A DNA stretch of 37,955 nt from a virus, in IMG/VR virus record IMGVR_UViG_3300026078_000013, positions 1-37,955 of that record; one strand, written 5' to 3'. A program made the translations under genes and the position numbers. The notes beneath the pieces were generated by a model. It made no database searches, was not told the origin of the DNA, and worked only from the letters and a program-made list of their open reading frames with translations. How positions within the stretch are numbered: the stretch's first letter is position 1; each line of letters opens with the position of its first letter. Positions 8,018 to 35,224 of the stretch are shown here, in pieces.

Positions 8018-8187
8018 CCATCCATCCCATCACCCGCACGCGCCCCAACAGTCTCATCGGCTGCGATGCACCAACAAACGACCAGCGCCTAGCCGAGTGG
8101 TACTTCAAGTTCTACAGCGCAGGCCATCACCGGAACCGCAAACCTCGCCAGCGAGTTAAGCCGCGGATTAGGGTTGTTAACGACTGA
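8014..8187 (+). CDS. Small basic hypothetical protein
   Basis: 57 residues. Its ATG overlaps the Ea22-like stop (ATGA). It begins MTIHPITRTRPNSLIG, has a central RLAEWYFKFYSAGHH, and ends very basic (NRKPRQRVKPRIRVV). Such composition fits a small nucleic-acid-binding protein. It is short, but phasing with the gene before it supports it. No family recognised. Confidence 0.55.
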   Translation: MTIHPITRTRPNSLIGCDAPTNDQRLAEWYFKFYSAGHHRNRKPRQRVKPRIRVVND

Positions 8188-8225
8188 ACATCAATCGCCG
8201 GCCATGTTCGGCAAGGGAATTCAAG

Positions 8226-8774
8226 ATGGGAATGCTTAACATCAATGATGATGAACTCAAGGCCGCCATCGTAGAAAAGGCTGCTGACGAAATCCTTAGT
8301 CAAGACGATGACCTTTCAAAGCTGATCTCTAAAGAAGTCAAGTCGCGTCTGGATGCCATTTTTAGGGATCGCGCTGAGTCTCAAATTAAGAAAGCGATTG
8401 ATGAGGCCGTGCAGGGTTCGTTTGATCGCGAGTATCACCGCATTACTAATTTCGGCGAAACGGTAGGTAGTCCAACCACGATTCGTAAGGAGCTGGAAAA
8501 GACTATCAGCGCCTATTGGAGCGACAAGGTTGATCCTCGTTCTGGAAAAGCCACTGATAGCAGCTACAACGCCGTGACACGCGCTGAGTACCTAATGACG
8601 CAAGTATGCGCGCAGGACTTCACTGATGGTCTCAAGTCCAGCGTACTCAGCGTCACCGGCGCACTCAAGGACGGACTTCGTGTCCAGCTAGCGAAACACA
8701 TGGACGGACTTCTTAACGAACTTTTCCACATCAAGAGCTTGCAGGACCAAGGCAAAGTAGAGAAGCCTTGGTAA
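8226..8774 (+). CDS. Hypothetical helical protein upstream of the annealase
   Basis: 182 residues, almost wholly helical and charged: ELKAAIVEKAADEILSQ, KLISKEVKSRLDAIF, then AESQIKKAIDEAVQG. It has a tyrosine/tryptophan patch near residues 98-101 and a C-terminal helix that could dimerise. AAGGGAA precedes the start, and it is somewhat richer in A and T than its neighbours. Its place directly before the ERF gene suggests a partner of DNA annealing or replication, but no motif shows this. It is the best remaining candidate for an unrecognised replication factor on this strand. Confidence 0.65.
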   Translation: MGMLNINDDELKAAIVEKAADEILSQDDDLSKLISKEVKSRLDAIFRDRAESQIKKAIDEAVQGSFDREYHRITNFGETVGSPTTIRKELEKTISAYWSDKVDPRSGKATDSSYNAVTRAEYLMTQVCAQDFTDGLKSSVLSVTGALKDGLRVQLAKHMDGLLNELFHIKSLQDQGKVEKPW

Positions 8775-8823
8775 CGAATTCCCAACACCGCGCACGCCGG
8801 GTTGTAGCGTGCGGAGATTTCAG

Positions 8824-9633
8824 ATGAACGCCATCGTTCGGCATGAGCAGCAAGACGAAACGACGATGCTTGCCATTATCTCCCGGGCAGCGGCAGACCC
8901 GAGTGTTGATATCGACAAGCTGGAGCGTCTCCTGGCCATGAAGGAGCGTATGGATGCCAAGATGGCGGAGCAGGCATTCAACGACGCCATGAACCTGGCA
9001 CAGTCGGAAGTTCGTGCCATCGGATGGGACAAGCAGAACGGCCAGACACACAGTGCTTACGTGACCTACGCGAAGATGGATGCGGCTATTAGGCCCATCT
9101 ATATCCGTCATGGCTTCGCCCTGAGCTTCGATACAGGCGAGCCGGCCAATCCGCAGGAAGTACGCTTCATGTGCTACGTGAGCCACAAGGACGGGCACAC
9201 GCGTACGTACAAGGTCGACATGCCAGCAGATGGCAAGGGTGCCAAGGGTAATGACGTGATGACCCGGACGCATGCCTTTGGATCGGCGACGAGCTACGGG
9301 CGCCGCTATCTCCTCAAGATGATCTTCAACGTCGTGGAAGCGGCAGAAGACGATGACGGTGTGTCCGCATCCAAGGTCGAAAAGGCGAAGTCGCAAGCCC
9401 AACTGGCCTGGGAGGAAACATGGAACGCCTTATCCGAGGATCAGCGCGTGATGCTCACCGAGTTCTCCCAAGAGATCATCCAGATCCTTGCATCCGGTGA
9501 TGCCGAATCTGCGCGCGACACCATCGCCACCAAGGGACTGGACGGCGACGAGATGTACGCCCTCTATGGCCTATTCAACAAAGAGGCTCGCAAGGTTCTT
9601 GGACGTGCCGTTTTCACCAAAAGGAAGTCGTGA
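8824..9633 (+). CDS. erf: ERF-family single-strand annealing protein
   Basis: 269 residues from the ATG at 8824, which has GGAG ten bases upstream; the ATG at 8809 has none. It is ERF-like. The N-terminal region has NDAMNLAQSEVRAIGWDKQN, a YVTYAKMDAAIRPIY segment, and the signature GSATSYGRRYLLKMIFNVV at about residues 154-172. This matches the G-S-x-x-x-Y-x-x-R-Y-x-L motif of ERF (P22 Erf). Erf proteins form rings on single-stranded DNA and anneal complementary strands, which lets circularly permuted phage genomes recombine into circles. It fits the headful-packaged genome. Overlap with the NinB-like gene indicates joint expression. Confidence 0.93.
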   Translation: MNAIVRHEQQDETTMLAIISRAAADPSVDIDKLERLLAMKERMDAKMAEQAFNDAMNLAQSEVRAIGWDKQNGQTHSAYVTYAKMDAAIRPIYIRHGFALSFDTGEPANPQEVRFMCYVSHKDGHTRTYKVDMPADGKGAKGNDVMTRTHAFGSATSYGRRYLLKMIFNVVEAAEDDDGVSASKVEKAKSQAQLAWEETWNALSEDQRVMLTEFSQEIIQILASGDAESARDTIATKGLDGDEMYALYGLFNKEARKVLGRAVFTKRKS

Positions 9634-10043
9634 TGAAGTCTGTAACGCTCCATGACTGGCAACTCTACGGTGAAGAACCCATGAGCCGGGCGCAGCAGAA
9701 CCTTTTCAATGCTGCGTGCGAGTGCCTTTCGACCATGCAGTGGCATGGCGGCTACCTGAGCCATGACGACGTGCGGCACATCCTCACGGCGATGGTTCTC
9801 AGCTGGCGGATCATCCCGGGCTTGGACATGGGTGATGGCAAGCCTTCGGTGATCGTGCTGCCGCGGTCTTCTAAGGAACTTTCCAAGTCGAAGGCTACGG
9901 AAGCGATCCAGATGGCGTTCTGTCTCGGTGACGACCCGTCGCAGTTCGGTCTTTCCTGCAATCCCGTCCAATGGTCCCAAGTGGTCAGGCTGGCTCGGGG
10001 GATCAGTGATTCGGATGAAGAATTTTCTCTTAGATACGCTTGA
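9633..10043 (+). CDS. NinB-like (lambda Orf family) recombination mediator
   Basis: 136 residues from the ATG overlapping the erf stop (TGATG). NinB features visible: an N-terminal helix (SRAQQNLFNAACECLS), QWHGGYLSHDDVRHILTAM (the W-H-G-x-x-L-S-x-D-x-x-K/R signature), then GKPSVIVLPRSSKELSKS and a final helix. Lambda NinB (Orf) binds single-stranded DNA and SSB and lets Red work without RecFOR. Placement directly after an annealase supports the call. The 3' end contains the -35 box of the promoter for the RNA block that follows. Confidence 0.8.
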   Translation: MKSVTLHDWQLYGEEPMSRAQQNLFNAACECLSTMQWHGGYLSHDDVRHILTAMVLSWRIIPGLDMGDGKPSVIVLPRSSKELSKSKATEAIQMAFCLGDDPSQFGLSCNPVQWSQVVRLARGISDSDEEFSLRYA

Positions 10044-10068
10044 CAAATATTCCATATAGTAATATTGT
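10040..10068 (+). promoter_or_regulatory. Internal early promoter for the RNA block
   Basis: TTGACA at 10040-10045, a 17-base spacer, and TATTGT at 10063-10068. An alternative -10 TAATAT at 10060-10065 would give a 14-base spacer. The -35 overlaps the final codons of the NinB-like gene. The element reads GCTTGACAAATATTC, nearly the same as GCTTGACACATATTC of the main early promoter, so the repressor may control it too. The start is expected near 10075, just before the structured RNA. Confidence 0.6.
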
Positions 10069-10106
10069 TGTTCTTAAGGGCGTGCCGCCCTCCGCGGCTT
10101 GAGGGC

Positions 10107-10198
10107 ATTAGAGAGGTGGTTTGCTGCAATCCCTAGCGGCCGACGGGTGGAGAAAGATAGCGAAAGCGATTCTTCGAGCAGTCAACCACCTCTCTAAT
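10107..10198 (+). ncRNA. Structured RNA closed by a perfect 15-bp stem
   Basis: ATTAGAGAGGTGGTT (10107-10121) pairs perfectly with AACCACCTCTCTAAT (10184-10198). After a 2x2 internal loop the stem continues CTGC/GCAG. Inside are a CCC/GGG element and the hairpin AAGATAGC-GAAA-GCGATTCTT, a GNRA loop with one mismatch and one bulge. No coding frame is present. Just upstream, GGGCG-TGC-CGCCC and GCCGC-CCTCC-GCGGC are two mutually exclusive short hairpins. A dedicated promoter and the tRNA-like element nine bases later suggest a processed small RNA. It matches no ribozyme or riboswitch I can name. Confidence 0.55.
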
Positions 10199-10206
10199 CG
10201 ATTTAT

Positions 10207-10299
10207 GGCAGTTGCCCTAGTGGAGCAGGCGAAATCAATCCGCCTGAGCTGGTTCGATTCTAGCGGGAATGCACAGGGTTCGATGCCCTGCAACTGCCG
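10207..10299 (+). tRNA. tRNA-like element, long variable arm, UCA in the anticodon loop (degenerate)
   Basis: GGCAGTTG (10207-10214) pairs over 8 bp with CAACTGCC (10291-10298), followed by G as discriminator. A normal T-arm (CAGGG-TTCGATG-CCCTG, 10274-10290) precedes it. The central hairpin CAGGCG-AAATCAATC-CGCCTG (10226-10246) has TCA in its middle, and a second arm GCTGG-TTCGATT-CTAGC (10248-10264) fills the variable-arm place and itself looks like a T-arm. The 8-bp acceptor plus 5-bp T stem, discriminator G, long extra arm and UCA recall selenocysteine tRNA. But U33 is missing, the loop is nine bases, the D-arm is reduced, and no CCA is encoded. It could be a decoy or a decayed tRNA. Confidence 0.5.
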
Positions 10300-10317
10300 C
10301 TTACAAAGGAGAGCGTG

Positions 10318-10620
10318 ATGAGTGAAGCGAAGCATACGCCTGGGCCATGGCATGTTCTGAATCATGGGCCGCATTACAACAATCCACGCATTGACCATCT
10401 GGAAATTGCTTGGACCGAACATGGCGAGCTGGTTACCGAACTTGTTTACGGCAAAGAAAATGCCGACTTGATATCCGCATCGCCTGATCTTCTGGCCGCC
10501 CTTGAGAGAATGGAGCACGCTTTTCACCTTCTACTCCAGAGTAAGCCGGTTCGCGACGCCGATGAAGTTCTCGCCGAAGCACGCGCAGCCAAAGCCAAAG
10601 CCAAAGGCCACTCCCTATGA
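10318..10620 (+). CDS. TPGPW-family phage protein
   Basis: 100 residues from the ATG at 10318, preceded by AAGGAGAG. The start KHTPGPWHVLN, the middle ENADLISASPDLLAALERM and the alanine-rich end match a widespread family of phage accessory proteins (TPGPW...ANARLIAAAPDLLEAL). The function is unknown. It opens the second group of early genes, after the RNA block, and overlaps the next gene by ATGA. Confidence 0.75.
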   Translation: MSEAKHTPGPWHVLNHGPHYNNPRIDHLEIAWTEHGELVTELVYGKENADLISASPDLLAALERMEHAFHLLLQSKPVRDADEVLAEARAAKAKAKGHSL

Positions 10621-34463: not shown

Positions 34464-34541
34464 TGGTGCCCCGTGAAGGACTCGAACCTTCATATCTAGG
34501 GATTTTGAGTCCCCTGCATCTACCAATTCTGCTAACGAGGC
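34464..34541 (-). tRNA. tRNA-Leu (CAA), short variable arm
   Basis: Acceptor GCCTCGT/ACGGGGC, U8 A9, D-loop with TTGGTAGA, anticodon arm GGGGA-CTCAAAA-TCCCT (anticodon CAA), T-arm GAAGG-TTCGAGT-CCTTC, discriminator A and an encoded CCA. The body follows bacterial tRNA-Leu, but the variable region has only six bases (AGATAT) where leucine tRNAs normally carry a long arm. Length 78. Confidence 0.9.
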
Positions 34542-34543
34542 AT

Positions 34544-34619
34544 TGGAGCGAACTATGGGACTTGAACCCATAACCTCAGACTTGGAAGGACCGCGCTCTG
34601 CCTATTGAGCTAAGTTCGC
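34544..34619 (-). tRNA. tRNA-Gly (TCC)
   Basis: Acceptor GCGAACT/AGTTCGC, U8 A9, D-arm GCTC/GAGC with AATAGGCA loop, anticodon loop CTTCCAA (anticodon TCC), T-arm ATGGG-TTCAAGT-CCCAT, discriminator T, encoded CCA. The anticodon stem has one T-T mismatch (CGGTC/GTCTG). Only two bases separate it from tRNA-Leu, so both come from one transcript. Length 76. Confidence 0.92.
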
Positions 34620-34651
34620 TTATTACTTTTGGCATAGGCCATATAGCCTAC

Positions 34652-34679
34652 TTGCATAACACGTATTACGTGGTAATCT
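34652..34679 (+). promoter_or_regulatory. Plus-strand promoter with palindromic operator
   Basis: TTGCAT (34652-34657), 16 bases, TAATCT (34674-34679), the same -10 as the main early promoter. The spacer contains the perfect palindrome CACGTA-T-TACGTG (34660-34672), exactly where a bound protein would block RNA polymerase. The downstream genes include a ribbon-helix-helix-like protein, so autoregulation is likely. Confidence 0.65.
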
Positions 34680-34704
34680 GTTTCCACCAACCAAGGAGAC
34701 AGCC

Positions 34705-34869
34705 ATGAACACCAACCTCAAGACCTGGATCGTCATCAACTCTGCCGGCAATGCCATGACTGATCCGATGACGATGGAAGCGGCCCAGAAGAAGGCTAAC
34801 GCGATGAATGCGACCTGCCTCAAACATCAGATGTCCGGCTCCTACAGCCTCAAGTACGTGGGTGAGTGA
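34705..34869 (+). CDS. Small protein of the plus-strand island
   Basis: 54 residues with AAGGAG nine bases before the ATG. It reads MNTNLKTWIVINSAGNAMTD, then a methionine/alanine-rich helix (TMEAAQKKANAMNATC) and SGSYSLKYVGE. The strand-helix-strand order suggests a tiny mixed fold. It is coupled to the next gene by TGATG. No family recognised. It could be the partner of the regulator in a small two-gene module. Confidence 0.65.
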   Translation: MNTNLKTWIVINSAGNAMTDPMTMEAAQKKANAMNATCLKHQMSGSYSLKYVGE

Positions 34870-35078
34870 TGAACCAAGTAGAGCGTAACAAGAAGTACAG
34901 GGAACGCCTCAAGTCAGAGGGGATCAAGAGGGTAGACCTTAAGATCCCTTCGGCTCAGTATGCAGCCATCCAATCTAAGCTAGCCAAGGGTGAAACGGTC
35001 ACCTCTTGGCTTTTACAGCTTGTGGCAGATAACACATCGCCAATCTGCCACGCGCGCATTGTTTGGTCAGGGCGGTAG
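34869..35078 (+). CDS. Ribbon-helix-helix-like regulator
   Basis: 69 residues from ATG 34869. NKKYRERLKSEGIKRVDLKI (basic helix plus N-terminal strand), then PSAQYAAIQSKLAKGETVTS and WLLQLVAD. A strand with alternating K-R-V-D-L-K-I followed by two helices is the Arc/MetJ-type fold, and the YRERxKxEGxKRVDLxxP start occurs in many phage proteins of this kind. Its last 15 bases run antisense over the 3' end of tRNA-Pro. It probably binds the palindrome in its own promoter. Confidence 0.7.
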   Translation: MNQVERNKKYRERLKSEGIKRVDLKIPSAQYAAIQSKLAKGETVTSWLLQLVADNTSPICHARIVWSGR

Positions 35079-35140
35079 GATTTGAACCTACGGCAACCGC
35101 GTTCCAGGCGCGGGACTCTACCAGACTGAGCTACACCCTG
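35064..35140 (-). tRNA. tRNA-Pro (TGG)
   Basis: Acceptor CAGGGTG/CGCCCTG with the C1-G72 pair typical of proline, U8 A9, D-arm with TCTGGTAG, anticodon arm CCGCG-CCTGGAA-CGCGG (anticodon TGG), T-arm GTAGG-TTCAAAT-CCTAC, discriminator A, encoded CCA. Position 33 is C instead of the near-universal T. Its 3' end overlaps the stop of the plus-strand regulator gene. Length 77. Confidence 0.9.
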
Positions 35141-35151
35141 ATTTTGATCGG

Positions 35152-35224
35152 TGCTGGCAGTAGGCATCGAACCCACGACCTACCGCTTACAAAGCGGCTG
35201 CTCTGCCATCTGAGCTATGCCAGC
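35152..35224 (-). tRNA. tRNA-Thr (TGT)
   Basis: Acceptor GCTGGCA/TGCCAGC, U8 A9, D-arm GCTC/GAGC with AGATGGCA loop, anticodon arm GCCGC-TTTGTAA-GCGGT (anticodon TGT), T-arm GTGGG-TTCGATG-CCTAC, discriminator A. The full CCA is not encoded (ACC then G), so the host must add it. The upstream protein gene reads into its 5' half. Length 73 without CCA. Confidence 0.92.

Follow-up and report, generated by a model that had tools for sequence, protein, structure and literature searches.

A conserved RNA module with variable inserts in phages, and a tRNA-like counterpart between two early genes

Introduction

What is specified by a long untranslated interval between two early genes of a phage, and where else does its RNA occur? 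The question is raised by a viral record, IMGVR_UViG_3300026078_000013 of IMG/VR, the whole of which (37,955 bases) is referred to here as the window. A preliminary description of this DNA placed a promoter, two mutually exclusive GC hairpins, a branched RNA and a tRNA-shaped element in tandem between a NinB-like gene and a TPGPW gene, and proposed that a small RNA of about 90 nt is cut out beside a tRNA-like end. The locus was compared with related viral contigs, with phage and bacterial genomes and with the Rfam families.

The intergenic locus and its neighbours

The interval is as described: 274 untranslated bases (10044-10317; Table 1) separate the last base of the NinB-like frame, 10043, from the TPGPW start codon, an ATG at 10318. 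The NinB-like frame has no Pfam or PHROG match. No near nucleotide relatives of the region were found in a search of 50,697 phage records. Covariance models of all Rfam families, run on the window region and on carriers of related RNAs, gave no match at threshold at the locus, the sole weak match being tRNA-Sec at 10207-10298; the earlier statement that the structured RNA fits no Rfam family thus stands. Judged against Rfam 15 and the open PubMed Central literature, the locus is previously uncatalogued. Folded as one strand, the 251-nt region gave a z of -2.5.

Table 1. Coordinates of the features of the locus in the window
Feature	Position	Strand	Basis or remark
Erf-type annealing protein ORF	8809-9633		upstream of NinB-like ORF
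NinB-like ORF	9630-10043		name from the preliminary description
Candidate sigma-70-like promoter, TTGACA-17-TATTGT	10040..10068	+	overlaps NinB-like stop codon; 10/12 consensus match
GC element	10084..10106	+	GCCGC 10084-10088/GCGGC 10094-10098; CCTC 10089-10092/GAGG 10101-10104
92-nt stem element	10107..10198	+	15-bp stem, two hairpins; z -5.6
Spacer CGATTTAT	10199..10206	+	identical in L002, L003 and L004 between the two slots
P1 5' strand GGCAGTTG	10207..10214	+	matches P1 GGCAGTG/GGCAATG of R1 in relatives
Slot-interior hairpin CAGGCG-AAATCAATC-CGCCTG	10226..10246	+	minimum-free-energy fold
T-arm-like hairpin GCTGG-TTCGATT-CTAGC	10248..10264	+	sequence and fold
T-arm-like hairpin CAGGG-TTCGATG-CCCTG, abuts P1	10274..10290	+	fold; tRNA-Sec T-arm alignment
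P1 3' strand CAACTGCC	10291..10298	+	fold
Ribosome-binding site AAAGGAG and ATG of TPGPW gene	10305..10320	+	sequence
TPGPW ORF	10318-10620		phrog_1273 (PHROG of unknown function)

The promoter-like site over the NinB-like stop is present, with TTGACA at 10040-10045, TATTGT at 10063-10068 and a predicted start near 10075. It is the best of two such sites in 1.1 kb, where shuffled sequence gave 0.5 +/- 0.7. In the relatives L002, L003 and L004 another conserved block lies at this position, and no further carriers of that block were found. Judged from its letters, the site is a possible promoter of this phage's own. The two mutually exclusive GC hairpins are also present; alternatively, the same strands could form a tight H-type pseudoknot. 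The GC element is near-identical across L002, L003, L004 and L007. Just 5' of the stem of L068, at about 2247-2273, the same topology is seen by eye in different letters (CTCG/CGAG with CCGCG/CGCGG), and its loop lengths suit a pseudoknot.

The stem element and the composite to which it belongs

All parts of the branched RNA were found as described. The perfect 15-bp stem pairs 10107-10121 with 10184-10198 and encloses one hairpin of GCUGC (10123-10127) with GCGGC (10136-10140) and a second one with a GAAA loop at 10162-10165. The fold of the 92-nt RNA reaches -40.4 kcal/mol, against -23.1 +/- 3.1 in shuffles. The element recurs in L018/L068 with 81% identity over 110 nt, and its homologue there (L068 2274-2364) has a fold z of -6.0. 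In an alignment fitted to both sequences, 28 pairs of the window and L068 are unchanged, one differs on one side, three differ on both sides and none is broken. A scan with the core pattern CTGCAATCCCTAGCGGC returned L018/L068 as the one true homologue; two other matches, in unrelated sequence, were chance. Only one close homologue of the element was thus found, and the sequence comparison points to a real, conserved and rare element.

Two viral contigs, L002 and L003, carry the NinB-like protein at 95-96% protein identity. Both keep the GC element, the ends of the long stem, the spacer, P1 (the outer stem of the downstream element) and the ribosome-binding site; the interiors of the stem element and of P1 are unlike those of the window. 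In L004 and L007 a near-same composite of about 330 nt lies 3' of an SSB-like gene, a different context, so the composite moves as a unit. In L068 the stem element stands upstream of another module within one shared noncoding stretch. A search of plasmids with the L003 region gave no match. The proposal that the unit is a separate RNA of 92 nt, made from a dedicated promoter and excised beside a tRNA-like end, found no support, because in relatives the stem element is part of the longer composite, which measures about 330 nt in L003 and L004 and lacks this promoter. Release of such an RNA in the window phage is possible.

The tRNA-like element

The second element begins 8 nt past the 15-bp stem. 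Its outer stem of 8 bp (10207-10214/10291-10298) resembles an acceptor stem and is stacked, with no base between, on the hairpin CAGGG-UUCGAUG-CCCUG; on these two features the earlier claim of a tRNA shape holds good. The element is tRNA-like and no recognisable tRNA gene, since ARAGORN called no tRNA and the best Rfam match, tRNA-Sec, reached 20.4 bits where the threshold is 47 (E 0.2 when all families are counted). An anticodon arm with a 7-nt loop and U33 is absent from the element. The hairpin that stands there instead has a loop of 9 nt, AAAUCAAUC, with no U immediately before UCA.

The R1 module

In L002, L003 and L004 the slot framed by P1 holds an RNA other than that of the window, here called R1. 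Its consensus consists of P1, GAAUGCGCAGUGGUGAUGCGC (hairpin P2, with a 7-nt loop), an insert of about 30-190 nt, and GCCGGGAUCACCUCCGGC (hairpin P3), which abuts the 3' strand of P1. P1 has 7-8 bp and is followed by about three unpaired bases; P2 and P3 each have 5 bp. The loops of P2 and P3 are mutually complementary. Two short patterns derived from R1 matched 18 and 29 viral contigs, and a scan with the pattern AATCGATTTATGGCANT returned known loci and chance matches only.

A covariance model of R1 was built from 21 sequences, with the loop-loop pairs left out, and gave 46 matches in 43 loci at E < 0.001. Among 44 distinct rows, 95.1% of the cells were paired, against 31-50% for slid structures. 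Changes on both sides occurred in 15 of the 23 pairs, and 149 cells were changed on both sides, against 39.7 +/- 4.8 in shuffles; none of 500 shuffles reached the covariation score. The loop-loop pairs were paired in 94%, as the types GGUGA:UCACC, GGCGA:UCGCC and GCUGA:UCAGC, and this pairing owes nothing to the model, from which those pairs were absent. Members found later, outside the model, retain the scheme (such as L092 with an altered P2 stem, L095, Kintu, S72 and SOVA965). R1 is almost certainly a conserved RNA structure, and it is absent from Rfam. Support from covariation in relatives is strong for R1, and for the 92-nt element consists of few changes, which are compensatory. The preliminary picture of a structured locus with a tRNA-like second element was correct; the strongly covarying, widespread family proved to be the module of the downstream slot.

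Some candidates were not retained. L057 (Bradyrhizobium, 22.5 bits) was judged doubtful and left out, and L028, L036 and L038, which show the P3 pattern only, were treated as chance. Tandem pairs of modules were seen in single phages at L009 7671-8104, L041 2711-3291 and L042 10535-11378, and the two modules of L009, like those of L041, have different loop types. The loop-loop pairing could also form between molecules instead of within one.

The window slot can be aligned with R1 by its frame. P1 reads GGCAGTG or GGCAATG in the R1 modules of L002, L003, L004, L019 and L043; the window, L002, L003, L043 and L019 have P1, the ribosome-binding site and the context in common. ACTGCC and the next 20 nt are kept in L002, L003, L004 and L043, and ACAAAGGAGAGCGTGATGAGT at the TPGPW ribosome-binding site is kept in L002, L003 and L043. 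The hairpin at 10274-10290 occupies the place of P3. With filters off and E up to 10, the model gave no R1 match at 10207-10298: the slot lacks P2, P3 and their loop-loop contact, with P1 kept and the flanks conserved. The slot is very probably homologous to the R1 module and, since P2 and P3 are lacking, may have decayed or diverged from it.

Carriers and genomic setting

R1 was found in prophages of Ralstonia, Stenotrophomonas, Xanthomonas and Acidovorax, and in the phages CUB19 (Stenotrophomonas), Kintu (Xanthomonas), S72 and SOVA965. Two surveys, covering 149 genomes from a single bacterial family and 274 from the class that contains it, serve as a specificity control for the model as well; they gave few matches outside the genome on which they were centred. 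Two of these, L092 and L095, are convincing; three weak ones (about 28 bits) lack the conserved hairpins where read. This rarity in widely sampled bacterial genomes is as expected of a phage element.

The nearest genes, on a simple reading of ORFs in place of a gene caller, are varied and mostly co-directional with the module, and P1 often ends 10-20 nt ahead of a ribosome-binding site or start codon. An intrinsic terminator lies within 100 nt after 3 of 45 modules, against 1.35% of random stretches, the numbers being small. A tRNA on the same strand is found within 500 nt of 9 of the 45 modules. Conversely, the 340 kb covered contain 26 tRNAs, of which 22 fall within 500 nt of a module, in neighbourhoods that make up about 15% of that DNA; these counts are not independent, as some carriers are related. 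The window itself has four tRNA genes (Leu, Gly, Pro and Thr) on the minus strand at 34464-35224, with about 440 nt between the pairs and no R1 module near them.

Exchange of inserts

The sequence comparisons show that the inserts are swapped between phages as cassettes. L021/L056 and L054 have 40-nt flanks that are 97-100% identical around unrelated inserts. The insert of L054 is 91% identical to that of L013, the flanks of the two being unrelated, and is also found in phage CUB19 (87% to L013). Like flanks with unlike inserts were further seen, by eye and with a weaker measure, in L011/L013/L022, L012/L095, L017/L025 and L002/L004. Compared with shuffles, the inserts are barely more structured (mean z -0.36). 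The insert of L002 holds a tRNA-Ser (ARAGORN; Rfam 40 bits), and the L025 insert, by eye, resembles a derivative of a tRNA. Acinetobacter phage Silvergun follows the composite of CUB19 up to the slot, where no R1 match was found, and then has a tRNA gene. L002 and L043 are two viral records of one IMG genome (2823745047), each with an R1 module; P1 and the ribosome-binding site are near-same in the two, and the inserts differ.

These alignments are best explained by a locus with two or more slots, among them the stem element and the P1 slot; the frames are conserved and the interiors exchanged between phages.

Comparison with known RNAs

In our reading of its secondary structure, R1 is connected like a tRNA: a Watson-Crick helix between the two loops serves for the elbow, and the insert for the anticodon arm. 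As in class II or selenocysteine tRNAs (RF00005, RF01852), P1 corresponds to the acceptor stem and P2 and P3 to the D- and T-arms, with the loops in contact and P3 directly on P1; in addition, the window version has the T-loop-like UUCGAUG. R1 differs from tRNA in that the loop-loop helix consists of five Watson-Crick pairs, a hypervariable insert replaces the anticodon arm, and there is neither a CCA end nor a callable anticodon.

The function of GOLLD and ROOL is, to our knowledge, not known, in contrast to their structures. R1 is likewise found in phages and prophages, adjoining tRNA genes and with a variable insert. However, its structural unit (P1-P2-insert-P3) is different and much smaller than GOLLD (RF02032) or ROOL, and it also occurs as a stand-alone module of 91-226 nt between early genes. 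GOLLD and ROOL lie near tRNA islands and have elaborate structures with kissing loops, and variable linkers, and the GOLLD linker sometimes holds tRNAs (PMC12286853). With E up to 5, 1 or 0.5, no Rfam match to either family was obtained in the window region, L002, L003, L004, L008, L009, L068 or L071, and none at the gathering threshold in L115-L118.

The put RNA of phage HK022 acts as nascent RNA, which binds RNA polymerase and causes read-through of terminators. It too is a structured RNA of phage early operons; compared by description, R1 differs in its operon positions and in the exchangeable insert. The RNA of the window has a promoter-like site directly 5' and yet is some 5 kb inside the run of early genes, and other carriers vary.

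Interpretation of the locus

We read the locus as a modular, stable phage noncoding RNA in which a clamp displays an exchangeable insert, and put this reading a little short of an even chance. The RNA would be transcribed with the operon, in the window perhaps additionally from the promoter at 10040, and would fold into a compact, stable form acting in trans. The R1 clamp would hold and display the insert, much as GOLLD and ROOL hold their variable linkers, and the insert would meet a changing partner, as its fast replacement suggests. For the window slot, with its tRNA-like interior, the best guess is a tRNA-mimicking decoy or a cargo. We infer stability, action in trans and the decoy or cargo role, and the mechanism as a whole is tentative. 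The varied neighbours, the terminators and the company of tRNAs argue against R1 as a dedicated leader of a single gene. Against a stable RNA, the spacing of 10-20 nt to the start and the co-directional genes would fit a cis role as well; moreover, the window lacks P2 and P3, the inserts are weakly structured and the 92-nt element has one close homologue.

Antitermination in cis, by which the nascent RNA would let polymerase pass the terminators of the operon as put does, remains the main rival, although we consider it unlikely. The modules lie on the operon strand, with one per strand in some phages (G001, G016, G025), and terminators follow some of them; PMC9378689 indicates that compact RNA structures are capable of such activity. 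However, the modules are mostly not just 3' of an early promoter, that of the window being well inside the early run, and others lie beside tRNA genes or ahead of terminators; a swappable insert of 30-190 nt would be unexpected in an element that binds polymerase. The frequent end of P1 shortly 5' of a start codon with its ribosome-binding site would also suit a 5' leader, either a riboswitch or an mRNA stabiliser, that controls translation of the next gene. Such a leader is rather improbable, given that the downstream gene varies among carriers, that three modules run into intrinsic terminators and that tRNA genes come next in CUB19, Kintu and S72.

For the window itself, a decayed phage tRNA beside an unrelated stable hairpin, with no RNA function left, would account for an element that is tRNA-like yet below thresholds, and in which P2 and P3 are absent and R1 is lost or replaced. 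We hold this to be improbable as well, because P1 is one base pair longer than that of L003 and still perfect, the 92-nt stem is kept through compensatory changes relative to L068, and the flanks are strongly conserved. Membership in the GOLLD or ROOL family, as a divergent form, would agree with the shared genomic setting and with the principle of a variable linker; it is very improbable in view of the small size of R1 modules, which can stand alone between two genes, and of the Rfam results for the window region and the scanned carriers.

Beyond the modular stable RNA at this locus, a wider picture is conceivable, though doubtful: an RNA cassette system in phages of several proteobacterial hosts, in which a tRNA-shaped clamp with a covarying loop-loop helix would carry exchangeable payloads (structured RNAs, tRNAs or tRNA-like decoys), which phages would trade at conserved stems and employ either against host RNA functions or as substitutes for them. 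As a small, independently folding module in sequenced phages, R1 offers a tractable handle, by which it can be deleted, its inserts swapped and its partners pulled down, and the present work yields a covariance model for the family. In the window and in Silvergun, nature itself has put a tRNA-like sequence and a tRNA, respectively, into the slot.

Large noncoding stretches upstream of tRNA clusters

In CUB19, Kintu, S72, SOVA965 and Silvergun, tRNA clusters are immediately preceded by a large conserved noncoding stretch (about 500-700 nt). Such a stretch is found at L008 2527-3230 (OM638088.1 41067-41770) and also in L115, L116, L117 and L118. It consists of conserved blocks parted by swapped inserts, has tRNAs as its only Rfam matches, and probably deserves a family of its own. 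The published account of CUB19 refers to six tRNAs and to no noncoding RNA. Within the large noncoding RNA of Silvergun lies a tRNA match of 126 nt (L118 1797-1922, 39 bits) that contains a long insertion, and the three short ORFs annotated there, CDS_0049 to 0051, look spurious. In Kintu, an insertion close to the 5' end of the large RNA contains the small annotated ORF gp66 (L115 1595-1816). On the minus strand of L068, positions 8039-8289 give a weak tmRNA match (17.9 bits) with a tRNA-like 3' end and ACCA, which may be an attachment-site copy of the end of a host tmRNA.
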